Shown: one piece after another, positions 3,318 to 64,000 of the stretch | Layout of the letters: every line of letters begins with the position of its first letter | Position numbering within the stretch: the first letter of the stretch is position 1 | Source: a virus | Virus record (IMG/VR): IMGVR_UViG_3300025138_000025 | Span: 24,166 to 88,165 of that record | Reading direction: 5' to 3' (one strand) | Length of the DNA: 64,000 nucleotides | Position numbers and translations under genes: made by a program | The notes under the pieces: model-generated | Told to the model about the DNA's origin: nothing | Databases searched by the model: none | Seen by the model: only the letters and a program-made list of their open reading frames with translations

Positions 3318-3520
3318 GAGTAGCAAAACTAACTAAAGATAGAAGAAATGACAAGCTTATTTCAGTGAATGGACTATATGCAGAAGCATTAGGTCTTATC
3401 GAAACCCCAACGGGGTTCCAGATGCGTTTAAAATTCGCTAATGGACATAGAGAAACAGTTGAGACTCAAAGAATCCGTATCTTACAAGATACATCAATAC
3501 TAAGAAGTCCTAACGCATAG
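3314..3520 (+). CDS. Small basic hypothetical protein
   Basis: A 68-residue protein in ATGA overlap with the HTH gene, and the last gene before the terminator at 3550. A beta-rich middle (Leu-Ile-Glu-Thr-Pro-Thr-Gly-Phe-Gln-Met-Arg-Leu) might be a small barrel. Function unknown. Confidence 0.6.
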   Translation: MRVAKLTKDRRNDKLISVNGLYAEALGLIETPTGFQMRLKFANGHRETVETQRIRILQDTSILRSPNA

Positions 3521-3549
3521 CAGCTAAAGAAAGAGATTGTGTAAATTAT

Positions 3550-3573
3550 GCCTAACTTATGTTGGGCTTTTTT
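3550..3573 (+). terminator. Intrinsic terminator of the first plus-strand operon
   Basis: GCCTAAC (3550-3556), loop TTAT, GTTGGGC (3561-3567), then six T. The 7-bp stem has one G-T wobble. It lies 30 bp after the last gene of the left operon. Confidence 0.8.
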
Positions 3574-3579
3574 ACGCCT

Positions 3580-3851
3580 TTAAAAAATTTTGGTTGGTGG
3601 AAGTTCCTTGAATTGGAGAGAAGTTTGTAGTAAGTAGTTATGTTGTTATTGGTTTGTTAGACTTGAGTAAGTCATTAAGAATGCTTTAGATTATGCTTGG
3701 TTATCTTGTATGATTTGGTTTATACAATCAATGGATAGCTTTTCTTCATAGTTAGGGACTCCATATATCCGCTTACGCTCCTATATGTCGATTCCCAGAT
3801 TGGAAGTAGCATCCATAATAGGTAGTTTGTATTGGCTTATAATCTAAATTA
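3580..3851 (-). ncRNA. Candidate structured non-coding RNA
   Basis: This stretch has no credible ORF on either strand. It lies directly downstream of a minus-strand promoter (3858-3886). On the minus strand it folds into a layered hairpin (forward 3755-3796): GGGA pairs with TCCC, CATATA with TATATG, and GC with GC closing a GTAA (GNRA) tetraloop, with symmetric GGA/GGA purine loops between. Further on are a TTGTAT/ATACAA stem and a GACTT/AAGTC stem. The 3' end is unclear; it may end near the hairpin at 3550-3567. No family recognised. Confidence 0.45.
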
Positions 3852-3857
3852 TGATTT

Positions 3858-3886
3858 ATTATATCACAGTTTTTATCATAAAGCAA
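3858..3886 (-). promoter_or_regulatory. Minus-strand sigma-70-type promoter for the candidate RNA
   Basis: Read on the minus strand: TTGCTT, 17 bp, TATAAT, with the upstream extension AAAAACAGTTC that the other promoters of this window share. The start site would be near 3851, and no start codon with a usable ORF follows. Confidence 0.6.
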
Positions 3887-3989
3887 GAACTGTTTTTCTC
3901 AGGGGTATGATTTATGGGGTTGGTATGGGTTCTATTAATGATAAAATATATTAGTATTGCAGATGGTAGTAGTGTTTCTACGAGATTGA

Positions 3990-4250
3990 CTACCTTGTTC
4001 TGCTACCTCGATTTTTCTTTTTTGGAACTGTTCTAAACTTTTTTCGAGCTTCAAGAAGTTCTGTCTCTTTTTGTAAGTCTCTAGTTCGTTTTCTTGTTGT
4101 GCTTTTATTGTGTTCATATTTAATGGCAGATGGTTTTGAGTAGTGCTGTCTTGCACGACACTCTTCCTTGATTCCTGCGTTATCACACTTGCGTCTGAAT
4201 ATTCTAATTGCCTTTTCAATGGGCATGGACTTACAATCAATACTCGGCAT
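3990..4250 (-). CDS. rpsU: Phage-encoded ribosomal protein bS21
   Basis: An 86-residue very basic protein that reads as a bS21 homologue. It has a short N-terminal strand, the helix pattern AIRIFRRKCDNAGIKEECRAR (one residue longer than quoted limits, positions about 11-31), then a HYSKPS turn and a long Lys/Arg-rich C-terminal helix. The start is the ATG ending at 4250, preceded by AGGAG on the minus strand. bS21 is a small-subunit protein that contacts the anti-Shine-Dalgarno region. Phage copies are known and are thought to replace or modify host bS21 to favour phage mRNAs. It overlaps the SANT-like gene by 14 bp and shares its promoter. Confidence 0.85.
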   Translation of the reverse strand: MPSIDCKSMPIEKAIRIFRRKCDNAGIKEECRARQHYSKPSAIKYEHNKSTTRKRTRDLQKETELLEARKKFRTVPKKKNRGSRTR

Positions 4251-4485
4251 CAGCTCTCCTATATTTAGTTCTATCACGATGCACTTTTGTCGATGCATGG
4301 GGAGGAGTTTCTTTTCTTACTCGAATATCACTCCTAGAGTTGAAAGTCCATCCTCTTTTCCTTAGATAGTATATCTGTGAGGCGATATTTGAAGGACTGC
4401 GACCCAGTTTGGATGCAATATCTTCTGTTGACATATCATTATAGTGCCTTTTCAAAAATTGTTTTTCATCAGTTGTCCATTTCAT
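4237..4485 (-). CDS. SANT/Myb-like HTH protein
   Basis: An 82-residue protein. Residues 1-47 are a SANT/Myb-like helix-turn-helix: a WTTDEKQFLKRHY first helix, then DIASKLGRSPSNIASQI and a KRGW end. The C-terminal part is basic and unstructured. The ATG lies only 6 nt after the TATAAT of its promoter, so the mRNA is probably leaderless. It is first in a two-gene minus-strand operon with bS21, divergent from the plus-strand genes at 4587. Likely a DNA-binding regulator; the target is unknown. Confidence 0.7.
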   Translation of the reverse strand: MKWTTDEKQFLKRHYNDMSTEDIASKLGRSPSNIASQIYYLRKRGWTFNSRSDIRVRKETPPHASTKVHRDRTKYRRADAEY

Positions 4486-4491
4486 AAGTAT

Positions 4492-4520
4492 ATTATATCT
4501 AATTTTTTTATTCGTGTCAA
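4492..4520 (-). promoter_or_regulatory. Minus-strand promoter, SANT-bS21 operon
   Basis: TTGACA (complement of 4515-4520), 17 bp, TATAAT (complement of 4492-4497), with AAAAATAGTTC upstream. The start codon is 6 nt after the -10 box. The -35 box lies 31 bp from that of the divergent promoter at 4552, so the two may be co-regulated. Confidence 0.85.
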
Positions 4521-18357: not shown

Positions 18358-18734
18358 GCGGTGGAGTATACAACAAAACCTATTTCGAGAATCATCCTTG
18401 GGAAAAGGATAAAGAAGGAGTGCTCTATGGAGTTATCCTTGTAAACAAGGCAACATGGGAAAGAGAAACAATAAAGGTCGGCATCGCAAAAGGGCGAACA
18501 TTCAAAGACGTAGTAAAAAGAGGGCGTGGCTTTACGAACTACGACATCAGAATACAGAGAATATGGAGCGGGACGATATACGACTGCTGGAGATGGGAGC
18601 AGAAGCTACACGAGAAATATGAATTGGACAGACATAAAACAGAGCATCACTTTGGCGGACATACCGAGTGCTTTGCCATGGACTCAAAAATACTGGAGGA
18701 CTTCCCCAAGAAGCATGAAATATTTAGGGATTAG
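18354..18734 (+). CDS. GIY-YIG-like nuclease
   Basis: A 126-residue protein. LYGVILVNKATW (about 24-35), IKVGIAKGRTFKDV (about 40-53) and a WRWEQKLHEKYEL helix with Glu (about 80-92) match the GIY-YIG plan: two strand motifs, then the helix with the catalytic acidic residue. Members of this superfamily are often homing endonucleases in phages. It lies inside the cassette that separates the ligase halves. ATGA overlap with the QueC-like gene; overlaps the next by 20 nt. Confidence 0.6.
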   Translation: MSGGVYNKTYFENHPWEKDKEGVLYGVILVNKATWERETIKVGIAKGRTFKDVVKRGRGFTNYDIRIQRIWSGTIYDCWRWEQKLHEKYELDRHKTEHHFGGHTECFAMDSKILEDFPKKHEIFRD

Positions 18735-20043
18735 TGAAGGCTTTCACGATGCCGGAGTGGCATTAGTAAACAATAATCAGATACTGTTTGCAAGTCATGC
18801 CGAGAGGTATACTAGAGTTAAGAATGATAGATTTGTGCCTCATGCGTTAAAATATCCTCACGATGTCAGCGTATTCTATGAAGATACTAACCTAAAGAAT
18901 TTAAGAAGATTAAAGAATGGACAACGAGCAACTCTAAATGGGCATAGTTATGATAAGTATGTAGGACACCATGAGAGTCATATGGCAGCAGGATATTATA
19001 CTGCCCCTTTTAAAGATGATGTAGTATGCGTTGTAATAGATGCAATCGGTGAGTATGATACAGCAAGTATTTGGAAAGATGGTGAGAAGGTATGGAGCAA
19101 AACATATCCAGACTCACTAGGATTATTCTATAGTGCTATCACGAAACGCATAGGATTAAAACCAAACGAAGATGAATACATAACAATGGGTATGGCAGCG
19201 TATGGAACGCCTTGTGTAGATATGGGAGACATAATGCACACAAATCTGCACAAAGGAATACCATTAAAGAAATGGTTTTGGAATACACCTGAAGACATAG
19301 CCGCTTCAGCACAGTTGTTTATCGAAAGCGAGATACTAGATATCATGCGTAAGGCTAGAGAGTACGGAAGTAAATTAGTTTATGGAGGTGGAGTAGCATT
19401 AAACTGCGTGGCAAATTCAAAAGTAAGACCATTGTTTGATGATATGTGGATATTTCCAAGCCCAGGAGATGCTGGGAGTTCGCTAGGAGCAGTCTTAGCG
19501 TATACAAAGCAAAGAATAGAATATAAAGATTGCTTTCATGGATATAATATAGAAAGAGAATTAAATCCAATAAAAGTAGTTGAAGAATTAATAAATAATA
19601 AAGTAGCAGGAGTAGCAAATGGAAAAGCAGAATTTGGGCCTCGTGCACTTGGTAATAGGAGTCTGCTTGGTGATGTGCGTTACGACATTAAAGATACAGT
19701 TAATGCCATTAAACGCAGACAGAAGTTTCGCCCTTTCGCACCAGCGATTTTGGAGGAGTTTGTAGATGAATACTTTGAAGGATACACTAATGAGTATATG
19801 CAGTTTACTTCTCAGGCTAAGCATGATTTTAACTCGATCACCCACGTCGATGGAAGTGCCAGAGTCCAAGTCGTTAGAGCTAACTCTAAGTCAGCATTAC
19901 GACCTATTTTAGAAGAATACTATGAAGTTACCAAAGTGCCGATGTTGTTAAATACAAGTTTAAATATAAAAGGACAGCCCATGGTTAATACTTGGGATGA
20001 GGCATTAGATTTTCAACACAAGTATGGAGTAAAAGTATTTTGA
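18715..20043 (+). CDS. NodU/TobZ-type O-carbamoyltransferase
   Basis: A 442-residue enzyme. The N-terminal actin-like part starts YLGISEGFHDAGVAL (3-17), and the metal-binding HHESH is at 85-89. YGGGVALNC (about 221-229) and the C-terminal hallmark AEFGPRALGNRSLLGD (about 302-317) are present. The family makes carbamoyl-AMP from carbamoyl phosphate and ATP and passes the carbamoyl group to a hydroxyl, usually on a sugar or antibiotic. The start chosen is ATG 18715, matching the family's first strand. Such enzymes occur in other large phages; here the neighbours suggest a glycan or small-molecule acceptor. Confidence 0.85.
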   Translation: MKYLGISEGFHDAGVALVNNNQILFASHAERYTRVKNDRFVPHALKYPHDVSVFYEDTNLKNLRRLKNGQRATLNGHSYDKYVGHHESHMAAGYYTAPFKDDVVCVVIDAIGEYDTASIWKDGEKVWSKTYPDSLGLFYSAITKRIGLKPNEDEYITMGMAAYGTPCVDMGDIMHTNLHKGIPLKKWFWNTPEDIAASAQLFIESEILDIMRKAREYGSKLVYGGGVALNCVANSKVRPLFDDMWIFPSPGDAGSSLGAVLAYTKQRIEYKDCFHGYNIERELNPIKVVEELINNKVAGVANGKAEFGPRALGNRSLLGDVRYDIKDTVNAIKRRQKFRPFAPAILEEFVDEYFEGYTNEYMQFTSQAKHDFNSITHVDGSARVQVVRANSKSALRPILEEYYEVTKVPMLLNTSLNIKGQPMVNTWDEALDFQHKYGVKVF

Positions 20044-35113: not shown

Positions 35114-35250
35114 ATATAGATAGACACGACTTAAGAGCAGCCTTAGTCACTGCAATAATATTAATGAGTACATATTTTTGGGCTATCCATGCGGATGCTC
35201 AGGTTTGTGATTACTCAGTACATGGACATTATATATGTGCGGATTCGTAA
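35110..35250 (+). CDS. Small exported or membrane protein (46 aa)
   Basis: A 46-residue ORF in ATGA overlap. Hydrophobic residues 10-26 are followed by AHADAQVC, which resembles a signal peptidase I site (Ala-x-Ala), leaving a 16-18-residue peptide with two Cys. It might be a secreted peptide or a one-span protein. It overlaps asnB by 16 nt. Confidence 0.45.
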   Translation: MNIDRHDLRAALVTAIILMSTYFWAIHADAQVCDYSVHGHYICADS

Positions 35251-36740
35251 TAACACAAAATAAAAATATGGTAGTAACCATGTTAGAAAGACAAGGCTTT
35301 CGCGGACCTGACCTAATGCATTTTTGGGCAGATGAGAAAGTATCTATGGGACACGCTCTCCTAGATATTAGTGGAGAAAGACAAAAACAACCATATAAGA
35401 CTAGAAAAGGAGAGATTATTGTATTCAATGGGGAGATGTATGACACGACAAAACCTAATGATACAGCTTTTTTAGCAAATGGTTACGATATGTATGGATT
35501 AAAGTTTTTACAGTATACAAATTGGCATGGCGCAATAGGGATATATAGTCCTAAAACTACGCAACTAACTTTGATTAGAGACCAGTTTGGAGCAAAGCCA
35601 TTGTGGTTTTACAAGAAAGGCAAAGCTTTTGCTGCTTCAACAAGTCTAAGAAGTTTTATAAATAAAGAAAGAGATAAAGAAAATGATAAATCATATATAT
35701 TTAATCCTCTATGGTCTGGTAATGTGACTCCTTATAAACATATAACTAAACTTGCTCCTGGACAGTATGTAACACATAACTTTACTTCAGGAGAGACTCG
35801 TACAGCTAACCTATGGAGGGATTACCAAATAATGTCGATGAAGTTAGATAAAAAAGAATTTAGAGAGAGAACAGTAAACTCTATAAGAAATATTGCTAAA
35901 AATAAACAAAAGACAGGTATATTTCTTAGTGGTGGATTAGATAGTACATTTGCACTATCTTGTATAAAAGATATGGGACTAGATCTAACGGCTTACATTT
36001 GTAAATATGATGACACTAGAGCCCAGTATAGTAATCATAATGGGTTTAGAAACGAAACAGACATGGCTATCCAAACTTGTAAAGAGTGGAATGTTCCTTA
36101 TAAAGTAGTAACATTACGACAAGCCGAAATGGGACATTTAAGTAGGATGTGGATGGCAAAAACACACTTCACTTGGGTTGATAGAAATAGACAAGCACCC
36201 CGATATAAATTATGTGAGGCTGCAAGTAAAGATGGTTGTAAGGTTATAATCACAGGAGATAGCGCAGATGAATTGTATACAGGATATATACATCACTCTA
36301 AAAGATTTGAGCCAGACTGGGATAAGGAAACCGTAAAGAGATGTAGAGAAATGAAATGGTTTCCAGACCAAGTATTTTCTAAAACAGACAGCTTTAACAA
36401 TGGCTTATTCTTTGATTTATTAGCAACTTCTGAGCAAAACATATTAACCACAGACCAAACTTGTGGAATGTTTGGAATGGAATCCAGACCAGTATTTTTA
36501 TCTCAAAATTATGTACAGTATATATTTAGAATTTCAGGAAAAGAAAAGTTTAAACAACATCCTAATTGGGACAAAGGAACTTATAAATATCTACTAAGAG
36601 AAGTAATGGGAGATATGTTACCAAAACATGTAAGAGAAAGAGAGAAAAAAGTAGGTTGGTCTAGTCCTTGGAATAATAATGTTGAGTTAATACAAAAAAG
36701 ATGGAGAAAAGAAGACCTAGAGTTTTTAGACGCATTATGA
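35235..36740 (+). CDS. Glutamine-dependent asparagine synthetase-like enzyme
   Basis: A 501-residue AsnB-family enzyme. The class II glutaminase domain has nucleophile Cys2 (after Met removal), RGPD (about 23-26) and FNGEMYD (about 63-69). The synthetase domain has an intact PP-loop SGGLDS (232-237) and ITGDSADEL (about 338-346). The family makes asparagine from aspartate, or amidates acids in natural-product and glycan pathways. In phage gene clusters with glycosyltransferases the second role is often assumed. Start ATG 35235. Confidence 0.85.
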   Translation: MCGFVITQNKNMVVTMLERQGFRGPDLMHFWADEKVSMGHALLDISGERQKQPYKTRKGEIIVFNGEMYDTTKPNDTAFLANGYDMYGLKFLQYTNWHGAIGIYSPKTTQLTLIRDQFGAKPLWFYKKGKAFAASTSLRSFINKERDKENDKSYIFNPLWSGNVTPYKHITKLAPGQYVTHNFTSGETRTANLWRDYQIMSMKLDKKEFRERTVNSIRNIAKNKQKTGIFLSGGLDSTFALSCIKDMGLDLTAYICKYDDTRAQYSNHNGFRNETDMAIQTCKEWNVPYKVVTLRQAEMGHLSRMWMAKTHFTWVDRNRQAPRYKLCEAASKDGCKVIITGDSADELYTGYIHHSKRFEPDWDKETVKRCREMKWFPDQVFSKTDSFNNGLFFDLLATSEQNILTTDQTCGMFGMESRPVFLSQNYVQYIFRISGKEKFKQHPNWDKGTYKYLLREVMGDMLPKHVREREKKVGWSSPWNNNVELIQKRWRKEDLEFLDAL

Positions 36741-52870: not shown

Positions 52871-55800
52871 TTAAGAATCGCTCCATTCTGAGCCATCCCA
52901 ATAAGACAATCCAAAGTCTGCAAGACTCGCAACTTCGGTATCAAATATTGTACCTGCTTGGGAGGCGGTTATTCTTTCAAATACTGTTGTTGTTGTATCG
53001 AAAGTAGTTGTTGTTAAGTGGTCAGTTGTTCTGTTTGTTTCTGTTGCTTTTGTAGTTTCAATAGTAGTTGTTGTAGTTCTACCTGTGGCAAAGATTGTTG
53101 TTTTTGTTGTTTCAAAAGTAGTACTTGTTCCAAATGTTGTTGTTCTAGCTGTTGCTGTATCTTTGGAAGTATCAAATGTACTTGTTGTAGTCCTACTTGA
53201 ACCAGTTGTTCTACTAGATGCGGTACCTCTATCTGTAGTGAAGGTACTTGTTGTTGTTCTACTTGATGCTGTCGCTCTTGTTGTAACTGTTCCTTGTGTA
53301 GTTGCAAAAGTAGTAGTAGTAGCTCTACTCGACGCTGTACTTCTAGTTGTATTAAATGTTGTAGTTGTAGAATGAGACGTTCCAGTTGCTCTAGAAGAAG
53401 CTCTTGAAGTAATATAAGCAGTCTCATAAGCTGTTGACTGAGTAGTATTAGTGCTTCTACTTGTATTTGTAGACTGAGCAGTATTAGTACTTCTAGCTGT
53501 GTTAGTAGCCTGAGTAGTGTTTGTACTTCTGCTTGTGTTTGTACCTTGAGTAGTAGTATATGAACTAATAGTAGCGAATGTTGTATTATCTATATAAGCA
53601 GTTGCAGTTATAAACGTAGTTGAAGTATTAGTTGTTTGTGATGTATTAGTACTTCTAGCTGTGTTAGTAGCCTGAACAGTATTTGTACTTCTACTTGTAC
53701 CAAATGATGTATTATTTGTAAAGGCTGTATTATTAGTAAACCCAGTACTTCTACTTGTATTAGTAGCTTGACTTGTGTTTGTACTTTTACTTGTAGAAAA
53801 TGATGTATTATTTGTAAAGGCTGTATTATTAGTAAACCCAGTACTTCTACTTGTATTAGTAGCTTGAGTAGTATTTGTACTTCTGCTTGTGCCAAATGCT
53901 GTGTTATCAATATACGCTGTAGAGGTATTTGTGTTTCTAGCAGTATTCGTTGCTTGAGTAGTAGTATAAGATGTTATAGTTGCAAATGATGTGTTATCGA
54001 TATACGCTGTAGCTGTATTGGTGTTTCTAGCTGTATTCGTGTTTCTAGCTGTGTTTGTATTCCTTGAAGTTCCAAATGCTGTGTTATCTATGTAAGCCGT
54101 AATTCTAGAAGTGTTAGTGTTTCTTGAAGTTCCAAATGCTGTATTATCTATGTAAGCTGTAATTCTGCTAGTGTTAGTGTTTCTTGATGTGTTTGTTGCT
54201 TGACTAGTGTTATATGCAGTACTTCTACTCGTGTTTGTATTTCTAGCTGTATTTGTAGCAAAAGCAGTGGAGTTTGTAAATCCAGTAGAGTTTGTAAATG
54301 CAGTGTTTCTAGATGTATTCGTGTTTCTAGCAGTGTTTGTACTTCTAGATGTCGATCTATCATCTGTAGCAAAGTCAGTTCCGTTTTCTGGGTCAAAATT
54401 AAGATTTACAAAGGTTGTTATGTAAGTTGTTATATTTGTAAATCCAGTTGAGTTTGTAAACCCAGTACTTCTACTTGTGTTTGTATTTCTAGCTGTGTTA
54501 GTGTTTCTAGATGTATTATTTGTAAATCCAGTAGCGTTTGTAAATCCTGTCGATCTAGTTGTACCAAATGAAGTATTATTTGTAAATCCAGTTGAGTTTG
54601 TAAACCCAGTACTTCTACTTGTATTAGTCGCCTGTGTAGTATCGTACGCTGTACTATTAGTAAACGCAGTACTTCTACTTGTATTAGTCGCCTGTGTAGT
54701 ATCGTATGCAGTAGAGTTTGTAAATCCAGTACTATCGATATACGCTGTAGATGTGTTCGTGTTTCTACTTGTATTAGTAGCTTGAGTAGTATTTGTACTT
54801 CTGCTTGTTCCAAATGCTGTATTATCTATATACGCTGTAGAGGTATTTGTGTTTCTAGCAGTATTGGTAGCCTGTGTAGTAGTATAAGATGTTATAGTAG
54901 CAAATGTAGTATTGTCTATATAAGCAGTATCTCTAGCAGTGTTAGTGCTTCTACTTGTATTAGTCGACTGTGTAGTATCGTATGTTGTTATAGTAGCAAA
55001 TGTAGTATTGTCTATATAAGCAGTATCTCTAGCAGTGTTTGTACTTCTAGATGTTGCTGTACTTTGTGTAGTAGTATAAGCTGTTATAGTTGCAAATGAT
55101 GTGTTATCAATGTAAGCTGTAGAAGTTGCAAATGTAGTTGAGGTATTAGTTGTTTGCGTTGTATTTGTGCTTCTACTTGTATTTGTAGCCTGTGTAGTAT
55201 TTGTACTTACTGTTGTTCCAAATGCTGTATTATTTATAAAGGCAGTAATAGTAGCAAATGTAGTATTGTCTATATAAGCAGTACTTGTAGCAAAAGTAGT
55301 AACATCTACATAAGCTGTTGTTGTTGCAAAAGATGTGTTTCTGCTAGTACCTATTGTTGTATCGAACGCTGTTATATATGCAGTTATAGTATTAAATGCG
55401 GTAGTCGTAGCTTTACTTGTATTAAATGTTGTAGTCGTAGTATAAGCTGTCGTTGTTGACTGAGTCGTATTAAATGTTGTTGTTGTAGTAAATGCTGTAG
55501 TTGTAGTATACGCAGTAGTAGTACCTTGTGTAGTTGTAAAGGCAGTCGTTGTAGTATAAGCTGTTGTTGTAGTAAATGCTGTAGTTGTACTGGTCGTTGT
55601 AGCAAATGTAGTAGTTGTATCAAATGTCGTTGTTCTACTTGTGTCTGTTGTTCTGCTAGTGTCGAAAGTTGTACTTCTGCTTGTATCAAAAGTTGTTGTA
55701 GTATTATAATCAGTATCAAAAGTAGTAGTCGTATTGAATACTGTATTCTGCACTCCTGATATAGTACTAGTAGTTGTAGCAGTTTGTCTTGTAGTTGCAT

Positions 55801-55939
55801 GCGTAGCAGTAAATGGCCCTGCTAAAGAACCATTATCATTTACGTAAACTTCGTTGACACGACGAATGGTTCCGCTATCATTGATAGCGATAAATCTAAC
55901 CGTCCGTAATGTACCAGAATCGTTTACGAATATTGCCAT
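52871..55939 (-). CDS. Thr-rich repetitive virion protein (fibre), 1022 aa
   Basis: The N-terminal 50 residues contain three VNDSG/INDSG/VNDNG repeats, which occur at the base of marine-phage fibres. About 900 residues follow made almost only of T, S, N, A, R, Q, F, Y, D and I, in units of mostly six residues (for example TNTSRS, TNTARN, TAYIDN, TGFTNS). Thr/Ser stand at alternate positions, which fits one face of a beta-solenoid or a triple beta-helix. The last 40 residues (ASLADFGLSYWDGSEW) form an end domain. Most likely an extended tail fibre. There is no enzymatic motif. Confidence 0.75.
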   Translation of the reverse strand: MAIFVNDSGTLRTVRFIAINDSGTIRRVNEVYVNDNGSLAGPFTATHATTRQTATTTSTISGVQNTVFNTTTTFDTDYNTTTTFDTSRSTTFDTSRTTDTSRTTTFDTTTTFATTTSTTTAFTTTTAYTTTTAFTTTQGTTTAYTTTTAFTTTTTFNTTQSTTTAYTTTTTFNTSKATTTAFNTITAYITAFDTTIGTSRNTSFATTTAYVDVTTFATSTAYIDNTTFATITAFINNTAFGTTVSTNTTQATNTSRSTNTTQTTNTSTTFATSTAYIDNTSFATITAYTTTQSTATSRSTNTARDTAYIDNTTFATITTYDTTQSTNTSRSTNTARDTAYIDNTTFATITSYTTTQATNTARNTNTSTAYIDNTAFGTSRSTNTTQATNTSRNTNTSTAYIDSTGFTNSTAYDTTQATNTSRSTAFTNSTAYDTTQATNTSRSTGFTNSTGFTNNTSFGTTRSTGFTNATGFTNNTSRNTNTARNTNTSRSTGFTNSTGFTNITTYITTFVNLNFDPENGTDFATDDRSTSRSTNTARNTNTSRNTAFTNSTGFTNSTAFATNTARNTNTSRSTAYNTSQATNTSRNTNTSRITAYIDNTAFGTSRNTNTSRITAYIDNTAFGTSRNTNTARNTNTARNTNTATAYIDNTSFATITSYTTTQATNTARNTNTSTAYIDNTAFGTSRSTNTTQATNTSRSTGFTNNTAFTNNTSFSTSKSTNTSQATNTSRSTGFTNNTAFTNNTSFGTSRSTNTVQATNTARSTNTSQTTNTSTTFITATAYIDNTTFATISSYTTTQGTNTSRSTNTTQATNTARSTNTAQSTNTSRSTNTTQSTAYETAYITSRASSRATGTSHSTTTTFNTTRSTASSRATTTTFATTQGTVTTRATASSRTTTSTFTTDRGTASSRTTGSSRTTTSTFDTSKDTATARTTTFGTSTTFETTKTTIFATGRTTTTTIETTKATETNRTTDHLTTTTFDTTTTVFERITASQAGTIFDTEVASLADFGLSYWDGSEWSDS
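53020..55780 (-). repeat. Short-period coding repeats of the Thr-rich fibre
   Basis: The coding DNA is built from related 12-24-bp units (mostly 18 bp), such as the complement of TCTACTTGTATTAGTAGC and relatives, repeated dozens of times. They are imperfect, always in frame, and give long shadow ORFs on the other strand. The units are likely to expand and contract by slippage or recombination. Confidence 0.75.
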
Positions 55940-55942
55940 GTC

Positions 55943-56167
55943 TTAACTCGAGTATACGAAAAAGATGTGACCGCTAGCCGTACTTCCTACTCCGGTTGGA
56001 GCAGTGGTAGTAATTGTGTGTGGTAGTCGAGCTGAGGGCACTGTGCCTGATGTAATCTTGGCTGCTGCTATACCTGCACCTGAGAAGTTTGCACTGGAAT
56101 CCACGGCTTGCACACCGTCAATCTTTATCCCTGCATCTTCAATATTAAAATCTAATTTTTGTCCCAT
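55943..56167 (-). CDS. Small virion protein with fibre-like motif
   Basis: A 74-residue protein. GAGIAAAKITSGTVPSARL (about 30-48) resembles one unit of the tail-fibre repeat in the next gene upstream. It lies between two fibre genes and so is likely to be a fibre joint or a split end of the large fibre. Confidence 0.6.
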   Translation of the reverse strand: MGQKLDFNIEDAGIKIDGVQAVDSSANFSGAGIAAAKITSGTVPSARLPHTITTTAPTGVGSTASGHIFFVYSS

Positions 56168-56168
56168 T

Positions 56169-59100
56169 TTATACCTCTATTGTTGTTCTTATAAATTTAT
56201 AAGCCATTGTGTCACCGCTTGCTGGTGTCACTCTTAATCTTACAGAGCCACTACTTATATCTGCATCAAATGTTGCTTGTGCACCATTGTCAAATATAGA
56301 AGCGTACTGCGTTAAATAAACTGTTGTTCCGTCATGGAAAAGTGTTATTTCTAGTGATTGATAATCACTGTCTGTTGAATTTGTAATCTGTACTAAATAC
56401 TTAGCAGTTCTAAATACTGAAGCTGTAAAATTATCTAATGTAATAGTTGCTGTAGAACTTGAAGTTCCTGTGCCTGTATGAAAACCAGCTACTCCGTTTA
56501 TAGAAAGTTTTTGTGATGGAAAACTGTCTCCAACACCTAGACTACCTGTTGTATTTACTGAGGAAGCATTTATATTACTAAATATAACATTTCCTGTCAT
56601 GCTTTTACCACTAAGGGCTGCACTTGATAATTGTGTAGTTGTTACAGAGTTATTTGCAATCTCACTTGAACCAACAGCGTTTGCTGCTATTTTAGCTGCT
56701 GTTACAGCATTAGCATTTATTTTTGCAGTTGTTACTTGTAAAGCTCCTAGATGTATTGTATCTATTGAGCCAGTCTTTAATTCTGCGCTGTCTACTGCAT
56801 TGGCTGCTATCTCTGCTGAGCCTACTGCATCCGTAGCTATTAAGTCTGCAGTAATTAATCCTGATGATATCATACCTACATTGTTAATTGCATTGTCTGC
56901 CATCTTAGCTGCTGTTACTTGATCATCTCCGATATGTATTGTATCAATACTACCAGTTACTAATTCTGCTGAATCTACGGAGTTAGCCGCTAATTCTGAA
57001 GAGCCTACTGCACCTGCTGCTATATGTCTTGCTACTATTGAATCTGTTGCAATCTTTGTACCGTCTATGACGTTAGCTGCAAAGTCTGCTGTTTGGTCAA
57101 TAGCACCTGATGCTATCTTTCCTGCTACAACGGCTCCGGCTGCTAACTGATCTGAAGTTACCTGTCCGTCATCTATATGCTGAGTAAGAATAGCATTGTT
57201 TGCTATCTTAGAGCCTATGACTATACCACCACCTAATTCATCGGTTGTAATACTTCCGTTAACAATGTGGATTGCAGAAACAGAGTTAGATGCTAGTTCT
57301 GTAGCTGTTACAGCGTTTGTTTGTATCTTAGCTGTTGCTACAGAGTTACCTGCTAATTGTGCAGTGTTAACCTGTGCGTCATCAATATGTTTTGTTAAGA
57401 TACTATTCTGAGCAATCTTCGTACCATCCACAGCGTTATCTGCTATGTTGGATGTTGCTATTGTGTTGGCTGCTATTTTTGCGCTTGTTACTTGTAAGTT
57501 CCCTATGTGTGCAGTATCGATACTGCCATCTACGTAATGTTCTGAATTTATAGAGTCATCAGCAATTTTTGTTCCGTTTATTGCGTCAGCTGCAATGTCT
57601 GCACCAACTATAGTACCGTTTGCAATCTTTGCTGAAGTAACTGAATTGTCTGCTATTGCAGAAGCTGTTCCTGTTAAGTTACCTGTTACGTTTCCTTCTA
57701 AATCTGCTACTAGCGTACCTTTTGCATATCCTGTTCCTGAAGTATTTACAGTTGTAGTTGGTTGTACTTGTAAGTCTTTAAATATCTGCCATTTACCAGA
57801 ATCATCTGCGTTTCTGAATATACCTGAATATTTGTCTGTACCACCAGTATCGTATAATCCATAGAAACCTATATCAACTGCATCTGAACTTCCGTTGCCA
57901 GTTGCCATTGAGATAAGAGAGTCTCCAGTTGTAATTGTTGTAGCTGAAGCTGCGAATGAAGTTCCTGATACTGTCACGTTTCCTGAGAAAGTAACATTAC
58001 CTGACATTGTCTGTCCACTTAATGCGTCTGATTTAAGTTCTGCTACCGATACAGCGTTTGCTGCTATCTGTGTAGCTGCTACTGCATTTCCAGCTATTTC
58101 TACTGCGGAGACTGAATTTACTGCAAGTTTTGCATTTGTTACTTGGTCGTCTGCAATATGTATTGTGTCTATTGAGCCTGATACTAGTTCTGCAGTATCT
58201 ACTGTGTTAGCTGCTAAGTGTCTTGATAAAATTTGGTTAGTAGCAATTTTTGCTGAAGTAACATTGTTATCTGCTATCTTTGCTGTTGTTACATTAGCAT
58301 TTAATATTTTTGCTGTTATAACTGAATCAGAAGCTAGGTGTATGGCGTCTATTGAGCCACTAACTATTTCTGCTGTATCTACAGAGTTTGCAGCAAGTTG
58401 ATCTGCTGTAATCTGTGCATCGTCTATATGTCTTGTTAAAATACTATTAGATGCTATCTTACTACCATCTACTGCATTGTCTGCTATATTACCAGTAGCA
58501 ATAGTATTTGCAGCTATCTGGTCTGTTGTTATTTGGTTATCGTCTATGTGTCTTGTTAAAATACTATTAGAAGCAATCTTTGTACTATCTACTGCGTTGT
58601 CTGCTATCTTACCTGTTGCTATAGTATTATCTGCTATATCTCCTGATACAATAGTACCATCTGCGATATGGTCTGAAGCAATTACTCCAGAAGGTAGCTT
58701 AGCTGCTGTAATAGCATTATCTGCTATTTTACCAGTTGTTACATTACTATTAGCTATTTTAGCTGTAGTTACTTGTGAAGCTCCTATATGTATAGTATCT
58801 ATACTACCTGTTATTAGTTCTGCACTATCTACAGAGTTAGCGGCTAGTAAGTCTGCTGTTACAGTTCCACTTGGGATGTGTGTAGCTGTTACTGAATTGT
58901 TTGCTATTTCTGAACTGCCTACTGAATTTAGTGCAATTTTTGCACTTGTTACTGAGTTAGCGGCTAATTTAGCTGCTGTTACTTGTAAAGCCCCTAGATG
59001 TATTGTATCTATTGAACCAGTTTTTAATTCTGATGAATCTACTGCATTTGCTGATATTTCTGCGTTTGCTATAGCGTTAGCAGCTACGTGTCTTGCTACT

Positions 59101-59480
59101 ATTGAATCTGTTGCTATCTCGCCTGATGTTACATTATTTGCAGCTATCTTACTTGTTATTACTTGAGACGCACCTATATGAGAAGAGTCTATACTTCCAT
59201 CTATTAGCTGAAGACTATCAACTGAGTTAGTTGCTAGTGCTGCTGTGTCTATTGAATTGTCTGCAACTCCTGTTACCGCAGATTGTTGTAAATTAATCGC
59301 TGCAATAGCATTAGTTGATATTTCACTAGTTCCTACTGCGTTTGCGGCTATTTCACTTGCACCTACTGCGTTAGCTGCTATTTCACTTGCTGTAATTGAA
59401 TTACTTACTATTTCAGTAGTACCTACTGCATTCGCCTCAAGTGAGGAGACTAATGCATTACTTTTTCCTATGAGTGACAT
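56169..59480 (-). CDS. Long tail fibre with IADNAV-type repeats, 1103 aa
   Basis: Most of the protein is a 10-12-residue repeat of the form [I/L]-A-[A/D]-N-[A/S]-V-x(3)-[K/E]-I, interleaved with GSIDTIHIG-type turns, known from marine tail fibres. A non-repetitive domain (about residues 490-640) holds GNVTFSGNVTVSGTS and a beta-rich insert. The last 130 residues form a separate tip (TGSLGVGDSF..., TAKYLVQITNSTDSDYQSL...), probably the receptor-binding end. Transcribed from right to left with the other virion genes. Confidence 0.8.
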   Translation of the reverse strand: MSLIGKSNALVSSLEANAVGTTEIVSNSITASEIAANAVGASEIAANAVGTSEISTNAIAAINLQQSAVTGVADNSIDTAALATNSVDSLQLIDGSIDSSHIGASQVITSKIAANNVTSGEIATDSIVARHVAANAIANAEISANAVDSSELKTGSIDTIHLGALQVTAAKLAANSVTSAKIALNSVGSSEIANNSVTATHIPSGTVTADLLAANSVDSAELITGSIDTIHIGASQVTTAKIANSNVTTGKIADNAITAAKLPSGVIASDHIADGTIVSGDIADNTIATGKIADNAVDSTKIASNSILTRHIDDNQITTDQIAANTIATGNIADNAVDGSKIASNSILTRHIDDAQITADQLAANSVDTAEIVSGSIDAIHLASDSVITAKILNANVTTAKIADNNVTSAKIATNQILSRHLAANTVDTAELVSGSIDTIHIADDQVTNAKLAVNSVSAVEIAGNAVAATQIAANAVSVAELKSDALSGQTMSGNVTFSGNVTVSGTSFAASATTITTGDSLISMATGNGSSDAVDIGFYGLYDTGGTDKYSGIFRNADDSGKWQIFKDLQVQPTTTVNTSGTGYAKGTLVADLEGNVTGNLTGTASAIADNSVTSAKIANGTIVGADIAADAINGTKIADDSINSEHYVDGSIDTAHIGNLQVTSAKIAANTIATSNIADNAVDGTKIAQNSILTKHIDDAQVNTAQLAGNSVATAKIQTNAVTATELASNSVSAIHIVNGSITTDELGGGIVIGSKIANNAILTQHIDDGQVTSDQLAAGAVVAGKIASGAIDQTADFAANVIDGTKIATDSIVARHIAAGAVGSSELAANSVDSAELVTGSIDTIHIGDDQVTAAKMADNAINNVGMISSGLITADLIATDAVGSAEIAANAVDSAELKTGSIDTIHLGALQVTTAKINANAVTAAKIAANAVGSSEIANNSVTTTQLSSAALSGKSMTGNVIFSNINASSVNTTGSLGVGDSFPSQKLSINGVAGFHTGTGTSSSTATITLDNFTASVFRTAKYLVQITNSTDSDYQSLEITLFHDGTTVYLTQYASIFDNGAQATFDADISSGSVRLRVTPASGDTMAYKFIRTTIEV
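56600..59440 (-). repeat. Tail-fibre coding repeats
   Basis: In-frame repeats of about 30-36 bp encode the IADNAV/GSIDTIHI units. They are imperfect at DNA level, with several larger duplications (for example the NSILTRHIDD unit occurs repeatedly). Confidence 0.75.
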
Positions 59481-62410: not shown

Positions 62411-62851
62411 TTAGCTATGTCTATCTCCATACAATGTTTGAGCAAATTTATCTTTTAACGCTAGTAGCTTGTCTTCTTCTAACATGATAGTTTTTGCCCA
62501 GTTGAGCATTATAGCCTGAGTTACGTTTTGATAGGGAGTAATAAATCCTGATAGTTCACCTCCTGCTTTGGCTCTCCAAGGTAAGTAAACCTTTAAATAT
62601 TCTTCGTGGGTTTGGTCAGCTTGTCCATCAACTAAATGACTGGCATTTGCACTGGTAGTATCTGTTCCTGTAATTTTTAATCTAACCATCTTTACCATGT
62701 CATTTTCTCTTATTCGTGGCATTTCTTGATTATTCACAAAGTTTTGAGTTTCATGATTAGAGTACTCCCATACAAGATTCATTTGTACATTGAGTGTAGT
62801 AGTTACTGCAGCCCCTTCACTATCTGTTCCTGTTTTAATTATATAGTCCAT
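62411..62851 (-). CDS. Hypothetical structural-module protein
   Basis: A 146-residue protein. MDYIIKTGTDSEGAAVTTTLNV opens with beta strands and a helical C-terminal half follows (NVTQAIMLNWAKTIMLEEDKL, about 108-128). Start ATG overlaps the stop of the upstream gene (TAATG). Not recognised. Confidence 0.55.
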   Translation of the reverse strand: MDYIIKTGTDSEGAAVTTTLNVQMNLVWEYSNHETQNFVNNQEMPRIRENDMVKMVRLKITGTDTTSANASHLVDGQADQTHEEYLKVYLPWRAKAGGELSGFITPYQNVTQAIMLNWAKTIMLEEDKLLALKDKFAQTLYGDRHS

Positions 62852-64000
62852 TATACTTTGCTATCTCCTAACGCTACGTTATGTGCGACATATCCTTTAT
62901 TATTTCCACCACGTACCACATAAGTATCATCATCTTCTACATCCATATTATGGGTAATACAAGATTGTGTTACTTTAGGTATCGCAAATATTTCTTCTCT
63001 AGTTCCATCTTCACAGATTAAAAAGTCCCCAACTGCTAAATCTTCTACTTTTACAAATTTAAATACATCATCTTTAAATGTTAACATTGGATGTTCATTA
63101 GTAACTTTTAAATTATAATTAATCCAATAATAGTTTGTATGTGCATGGGCCTCTGTTACTTCAGTAACATTTGAAGTTCCAAAACTTCCACTGCCTATTT
63201 CTGGAGTTGTCCAAGTTTTCCAAGCATTTTCATCTAGTGATAGACTTGAATGTCTGAATGATTTTACATCTTCTCCAGCAGTTACATCTTCGATTGCTTT
63301 CGTAGTTCCGTCAGCCATAACTACAGGAGTTCCTTGTACGAAACAACCGCCGCCTCCTCCGCCACCACCTCCGCTTCCAGAGGTGCCTCCTGTTATTACT
63401 TGATAACCTTGTGAACTTTCACCAATAGAAACTGATGTACTAGTAGTAGTTAAATTGGTTCCTGCAGAAGTTAATTCTACATTAATATAGCTTCCATTTG
63501 CAATATTTGCTGCAGAAGTTCCAAATGATCCACCATCAATTTTAAATCTTGCAGAAGTTGTATTACTTATACTTACACTTTTTGTTCCTGCAAAACCACC
63601 AACTACTTGAGTATTAGAATAAAAAGCTGTACTTAATGCTACACCTGTTTGGTTAGCAAAACTAAATACTGGGTCTGTTGTTCCAAATTTGATAAATCTT
63701 GCTTCGGCTGAACCTAATGTTTCTGCTCCATCTCCCTGCGCTCTTACAAACATTGATACATTACCTGAGCCTGTAAAAGTAAATGCAATCGGCATATTAG
63801 ATGTTTGTGCACTAGAGAATAGTCTACCTTCTGATAAGTTACCTGCTGTATATTGGTCAATTCTTGGAGTTTCATAAATTAATGTTCCTTCACTTGATGT
63901 TGAACTTCCGGTTCTTGCTTGTATACTAATAGTTTTAACATGGTTTGTTCCACCAGTCAATCTTACAAATCCTTGATAGAATCCTGGACCACTACCTACA
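62851..64000 (-). CDS. Structural protein with C-terminal Hint (intein-like) domain, 5' end outside window
   Basis: The frame is open to the right edge, so the N-terminus is missing; the internal TTG at 63960 is not a real start. About 210 visible residues are beta-rich, then a run of eight Gly, then a Hint domain from the Cys at 63345: CFVQGTPVVMADGT (block A), VTNEHPML with T-x-x-H (block B), a DLAVGDFL segment and the C-terminal YVAHN. Only VALGDSKV follows, and +1 is Val rather than Cys/Ser/Thr, so autocleavage rather than splicing is expected. A Gly-rich linker and a Hint end are known in bacterial intein-like proteins. Confidence 0.8.
   Translation of the reverse strand, partial: VGSGPGFYQGFVRLTGGTNHVKTISIQARTGSSTSSEGTLIYETPRIDQYTAGNLSEGRLFSSAQTSNMPIAFTFTGSGNVSMFVRAQGDGAETLGSAEARFIKFGTTDPVFSFANQTGVALSTAFYSNTQVVGGFAGTKSVSISNTTSARFKIDGGSFGTSAANIANGSYINVELTSAGTNLTTTSTSVSIGESSQGYQVITGGTSGSGGGGGGGGGCFVQGTPVVMADGTTKAIEDVTAGEDVKSFRHSSLSLDENAWKTWTTPEIGSGSFGTSNVTEVTEAHAHTNYYWINYNLKVTNEHPMLTFKDDVFKFVKVEDLAVGDFLICEDGTREEIFAIPKVTQSCITHNMDVEDDDTYVVRGGNNKGYVAHNVALGDSKV

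Follow-up and report, generated by a model that had tools for sequence, protein, structure and literature searches.

The locus poses two questions: whether a promoter that points into a stretch without genes, beside the gene of a phage ribosomal protein, drives synthesis of a functional RNA, and what such an RNA might do. We call the whole 64-kb stretch of viral DNA that was analysed the window. Its longest ORF-free gap lies within 3521-3989, where the last plus-strand gene ends at 3520 and the minus-strand bS21 gene at 3990. The first-pass annotation had taken the region for non-coding, which is probably right: the sole ORF in this interval, one of 40 aa that overlaps the promoter, does not look like a real gene. 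No conserved ORF was seen by eye among the homologues, in which indels did not come in threes and short chance ORFs exist. The features described below are collected in Table 1.

Table 1. Features of the RNA locus in window coordinates
Feature	Position	Strand	Basis
Intrinsic terminator of convergent plus-strand genes, bounding the RNA region	3550-3575	+	
3' tail motif 2, AACUUNNNCCAAYYCAAAAUUUUUU	3582-3605	-	Conserved among homologues
3' tail motif 1, AAYUACUAMAAA	3624-3635	-	Spacing among homologues
Small 3' hairpin GACUUACUCAAGUC	3660-3673	-	Predicted by single-sequence fold
Structured RNA core: stacked helices forming a rod, internal loops purine-rich	3720-3834	-	Model R1, pair counts
Helix P2, 3' strand	3723-3736	-	Pairs with 3811-3824
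Helix P3, 3' strand	3744-3747	-	Pairs with 3803-3806
Helix P4, 3' strand UCCC	3755-3758	-	Pairs with 3793-3796
Apical hairpin: CAUAUA/UAUAUG stem, GGA/GGA purine loop, GC-GUAA-GC tip	3762-3787	-	
Helix P4, 5' strand GGGA	3793-3796	-	Pairs with 3755-3758
Helix P3, 5' strand	3803-3806	-	Pairs with 3744-3747
Helix P2, 5' strand	3811-3824	-	Pairs with 3723-3736
Conserved unpaired 5' joiner CAAYACAAA	3826-3834	-	Near-invariant columns in alignment A1
RNA promoter: phage box AAAAACAGTTC, -35 TTGCTT, 17-bp spacer, -10 TATAAT	3858-3897	-	
Proximal conserved promoter element CATACCCCT	3901-3909	-	Comparison of 70 promoters
Distal conserved promoter element, A+T tract AATATATTTT	3942-3951	-	Comparison of 70 promoters
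Gene of ribosomal protein bS21, upstream of the RNA	3990-4250	-	Pfam PF01165, 6e-12; synteny
bS21 operon, first gene: HTH protein carrying a domain like sigma-70 region 4	4237-4485	-	Pfam PF08281

Promoter and genomic neighbourhood

The minus-strand promoter that had been proposed is present, with TTGCTT (3886-3881) and TATAAT (3863-3858) separated by 17 bp and preceded by a shared phage box, AAAAANANTTCTTG. The box occurs seven times in the window (0.05 expected), each time before a promoter-like -35/-10 pair, and the 40-nt long promoter pattern occurs once (0 expected). The -35 of the RNA promoter is unlike the TTGACA of the other six box promoters; among relatives it reads TTGCAT, TTGCTT, TTGATT and similar, TTGACA-type matches having been left out of the RNA-promoter set and taken as other promoters. 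A phage-wide promoter of near perfect consensus, AAAAATARTTCTTGACA-17-TATAAT, lies at 4518, 4726, 20983, 26269, 39442 and 62365. The HTH protein, which matches PF08281 with 2.8e-6 (above the Pfam cut-off), may recognise the box.

Conservation extends further upstream, up to about 3951. Of 70 non-redundant RNA promoters, 51 have a proximal element, CATACCCC, that precedes the box by exactly 12 nt; an A+T tract is found upstream in all 70 when one mismatch is allowed, its distance from the box being 54 nt in 40 promoters and 53-57 nt in most of the rest. The window has a single copy of the proximal element, which is a possible activator site, and the two elements mark the RNA promoter as a special and probably activated one. 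An imperfect inverted repeat, ACAGTT/AACTGT, also spans the promoter (3858-3893, minus strand) and is kept via compensating changes (ACACTT/AAGTGT) in some relatives, not in all.

The location downstream of bS21 on the same strand was confirmed, and the order HTH protein, bS21, RNA, convergent small protein, D5-like protein is constant wherever the flanks suffice, with Hsp20 and endolysin further out in nearly all loci. The loci were gathered via bS21 or the promoter, which bears on this synteny, and the shared neighbourhood may reflect simple lineage inheritance. The gene downstream of the RNA is convergent in loci with enough flank, so that a regulated gene on the same strand is missing there, which speaks against a riboswitch or leader RNA. 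In three loci (L037, L038, L040) bS21 lies some 350 nt further from the RNA, and in L070 more than 1 kb. Because the RNA retains its own promoter in all four, it looks like a unit of its own, separable from bS21. The RNA might also be a 3'-UTR element of the bS21 mRNA, acting in stability, processing or bS21 feedback, with the promoter being secondary. Its place behind bS21 on the same strand, with no terminator found between the two, would fit; however, the distance to bS21 differs between lineages (L037 type, L070), and few parts of the locus are as conserved as the dedicated promoter with its fixed upstream elements. We regard a 3'-UTR role as improbable.

As for other features, a cluster of four tRNA genes lies near the RNA locus in a related phage (L076:7260-7566). 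Elsewhere in the window, two ORFs of great length (1022 and 1103 aa; 52871-59480, minus strand) are highly repetitive and fibre-like by appearance. By eye, an ORF at 62851-63960 (minus strand) contains a Hint/intein-like stretch, CFVQGTPVVMADGTTKAIEDV, and plus-strand ORFs at 18526-20043 and 35235-36740 resemble carbamoyltransferase and asparagine synthase.

Distribution, fold and covariation

Uncultured phages from sea and soil carry homologues of the RNA, which were detected in IMG/VR at about 100 loci. The bS21 protein search yielded 50 viral loci and the promoter pattern at least 80 IMG/VR stretches; the pattern had no match in 84,980 prokaryote species genomes, and no relatives of this bS21 were found in prokaryote species genomes. 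In comparisons with distant loci, the best-aligned part of the minus strand of the window was the promoter block together with the first part of the RNA, rather than bS21. A covariance model built from 31 sequences, the window among them, matched 35 of 51 and 67 of 73 sources (E 1e-27 to 1e-9), some of which are the same contig and 31 of which match by construction, as training sequences. The window core, itself a training sequence, scored 95.4 bits (E 2.3e-18) against model R1. Most bS21 loci without a model match either end soon after bS21 or belong to a diverged clade II. One RNA copy is present in the virus record containing the window. Similarity searches against named phages gave only chance matches in or near the promoter, and the named phages with related bS21 or Hsp20 are distant ones. 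The phage bS21 sequence is gammaproteobacteria-like, which we take as no more than a hint at the host.

The hairpin originally recognised at 3755-3796 is present as described (GGGA/UCCC, CAUAUA/UAUAUG, GGA/GGA, GC-GUAA-GC), but it forms only the tip of the longer rod, to which a closing helix and a conserved 3' tail are added. The closing helix, P1, is short and lies at the 5' end; coevolution of its strands is modest (5/300 permutations, 10 sequences). P2 has 13 pairs, 10 of them with compensatory changes, and is 96.5% paired in 47 sequences. Compensatory changes were found in every pair of P3 (4/4), P4 (4/4) and the apical stem (6/6). The GC/GC tip occurs in all sequences that have letters at its columns, the apical tip reading GC-GNAA/GAA-GC across homologues. 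Conservation of the unpaired columns (0.786) is no lower than that of the paired ones (0.733), and of the columns conserved at >= 90%, 22 are unpaired and 10 paired. The small 3' hairpin is replaced at its position by another short hairpin in many homologues. For CAAYACAAA, a pairing with UUGURU was rejected, since the CG/UA covariation fits ACYAC/GURU better. The RNA is probably 190-280 nt long and would start near 3851 on the minus strand.

The structure was drawn from the RNAalifold consensus of such sequences and then refined by eye, which somewhat favours any percentage of paired cells. In the MAFFT alignment of 31 sequences, 89.5% of cells were paired (74.1% when shuffled), 24 of 29 pairs had changes on both sides, and the covariation score was 0.454, as against 0.205 (sd 0.011) in shuffled and at most 0.107 in slid controls. 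For 47 distinct sequences aligned by the model, an alignment that leans towards the structure, 94.7% of cells held standard pairs, compensatory changes (265 cells) affected 24/29 pairs, and the score was 0.582 (0.209 shuffled; slid, at most 0.091). Clade II has little sequence similarity to the first clade, gives weak matches or none to the first model and was gathered with its own bS21; in 19 of its sequences, RNAalifold alone gave the same type of rod with compensatory changes in 16 of 25 pairs. A third type (L070, L075, L092) has a similar fold. Safer evidence than the percentage paired comes from the slid controls and from the second, independent clade. Covariation among homologues, the check suggested along with the first-pass annotation, was strongly positive in both alignments and in the second clade. 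The excess of G-U over A-C cells (71:17) points to the minus strand as the RNA; this asymmetry and the promoter support the strand originally favoured.

It could be argued that there is no functional RNA at all, but a chance hairpin or a DNA palindrome, as the single-sequence fold of 293 nt of the minus strand reaches a z of only -2.4 (3/200 shuffles; plus strand, -1.0). This is moderately above chance and alone unconvincing, and the comparative evidence is decisive: compensatory changes in two clades with controls, as well as the G-U asymmetry, refute such a reading unless the alignments are wrong, and we give it hardly any credence. Judging from these comparisons, a structured RNA almost certainly exists on the minus strand of 3574-3960, and it is clearly under selection itself, its fold kept by compensating mutations.

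The 3' tail

Of 56 sequences, 41 have the starts of the two tail motifs 30 nt apart, and several of the remaining distances seem to be mis-anchored; the motifs end in AAAAUUUUUU. The tail is C-rich and G-poor (36 C and 7 G in 140 nt), and neither the terminator search nor the alignments revealed an intrinsic terminator on the minus strand; from both observations, Rho-type termination can be inferred. A plus-strand sigma-70 promoter in the tail block was rejected, as no -10 is conserved at suitable spacing.

Given its fixed spacing, the tail could equally well be taken for an element of the DNA or of the RNA, and the block at 3582-3635 (minus strand) could be an origin or operator. Promoter and RNA might then prime or control replication at this A+T-rich 3' element, in the manner of ColE1 RNA II or of phage origins using a transcript. 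The tail element occurs once in the window, next to a AAAATTTTTT tract that is accompanied by a repeat signal at -20/-30, its 30-nt spacing is fixed among relatives, and the gap is the longest without ORFs; on the other hand, the repeat signal is weak, the locus has no GC-skew switch and no replication initiator was recognised adjacent to it. On account of the tail element we give this role some weight, though we consider it unlikely.

The unpaired A/C-rich segments, that is CAAYACAAA and the tail motifs, could alternatively pair with host or phage mRNAs. Their conservation in unpaired form would agree with this, and most characterised phage sRNAs do pair with targets (PMC12197685). However, apart from a few scattered places, the locus itself is the only part of the window that contains complements of these segments, and conservation resides mostly in the long rod, unlike in short seed-type sRNAs. 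Base pairing thus seems quite unlikely and, like the 3'-UTR and 6S-like (see below) readings, less likely than a role at an origin.

Proposed role and comparison with known RNAs

We tentatively favour a separately transcribed, trans-acting, protein-binding phage RNA, a reading in which our confidence stays somewhat below even. It is suggested by conserved loops on freely varying stems and by the lack of a gene downstream on the strand of the RNA. RNAs that are recognised by a protein typically have this design, in which the stems are free to vary and enclose conserved purine loops and a GNRA-type tip. According to this model, the RNA would be transcribed on its own from the dedicated promoter with its two fixed upstream elements, its conserved loops would be read by a protein partner, and as part of a ribonucleoprotein it would serve in trans as scaffold or decoy while the cell is taken over. 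By neighbourhood alone, the phage bS21 or the ribosome would be the candidate partner. A more specific version, in which the rod is a bS21-binding scaffold and the resulting phage-specific ribonucleoprotein reprogrammes or tags host ribosomes for phage translation, is decidedly doubtful. Incorporation of phage bS21 into E. coli ribosomes has been reported, according to PMC9723584, which cites earlier work.

No known family had come to mind initially, and none emerged: at the Rfam 15 gathering threshold the window had no match and 15 divergent loci had tRNAs only, while scans at relaxed E-values gave chance hits or none (the near-hits mir-1179, Ysr49 and STnc100 were dismissed as chance, far below gathering). 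In the literature collection that was searched, no publication describing the RNA was found. With no Rfam family, named phage or paper found for it, the RNA is a new family of structured phage ncRNA. Few phage ncRNAs have been described, 21 by one 2021 count (PMC8545117); the present one is backed by strong covariation and about 100 metagenomic loci of sea and soil phages, and on every contig of sufficient length it lies next to the gene of a phage ribosomal protein. The RNA, its promoter and its consensus are now defined and testable, which makes the role of phage bS21 more approachable.

Among known systems, the phi29-type pRNA is likewise a phage-encoded structured RNA with its own promoter, but it has a three-way junction and serves the packaging motor, whereas ours is an unbranched rod beside bS21 with no Rfam match. 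6S RNA is also rod-like and a transcription unit of its own. A 6S-like decoy mimicking an open promoter to RNA polymerase would be useful for phage takeover and might be seen in the long rod with central internal loops; yet the middle of the rod is a series of small loops without a single large central bubble, and no match to the 6S covariance model of Rfam was obtained in the region even at E 5. We hold such a decoy to be very improbable. To our knowledge, no such covarying rod is present in PreS, VpdS, OOP or the phiKZ ncRNAs. These share with our RNA that they are phage-encoded non-coding transcripts (PMC12197685, PMC8545117), PreS and VpdS differing as short, Hfq-dependent pairing RNAs. 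OLE RNA of Bacillota, which is bound by bS21 (PMC12054373), is a structured bacterial ncRNA functionally tied to that protein, and serves here as a precedent only. OLE is much longer (about 600 nt), and its bS21 site mimics the Shine-Dalgarno/anti-Shine-Dalgarno pairing (PMC12054373). An OLE-type site (CCUCC/GGAGG) was rejected for the phage RNA, which also lacks an Rfam match, as neither CCTCC nor GGAGG occurs in the first 160 nt of any of 70 sequences. Finally, GOLLD and ROOL are, like the present RNA, structured RNAs that came from comparative genomics of environmental sequence (PMC12286853); they are much larger and multimeric, whereas the phage RNA consists of a simple rod, about 120 nt long, and its flanks.
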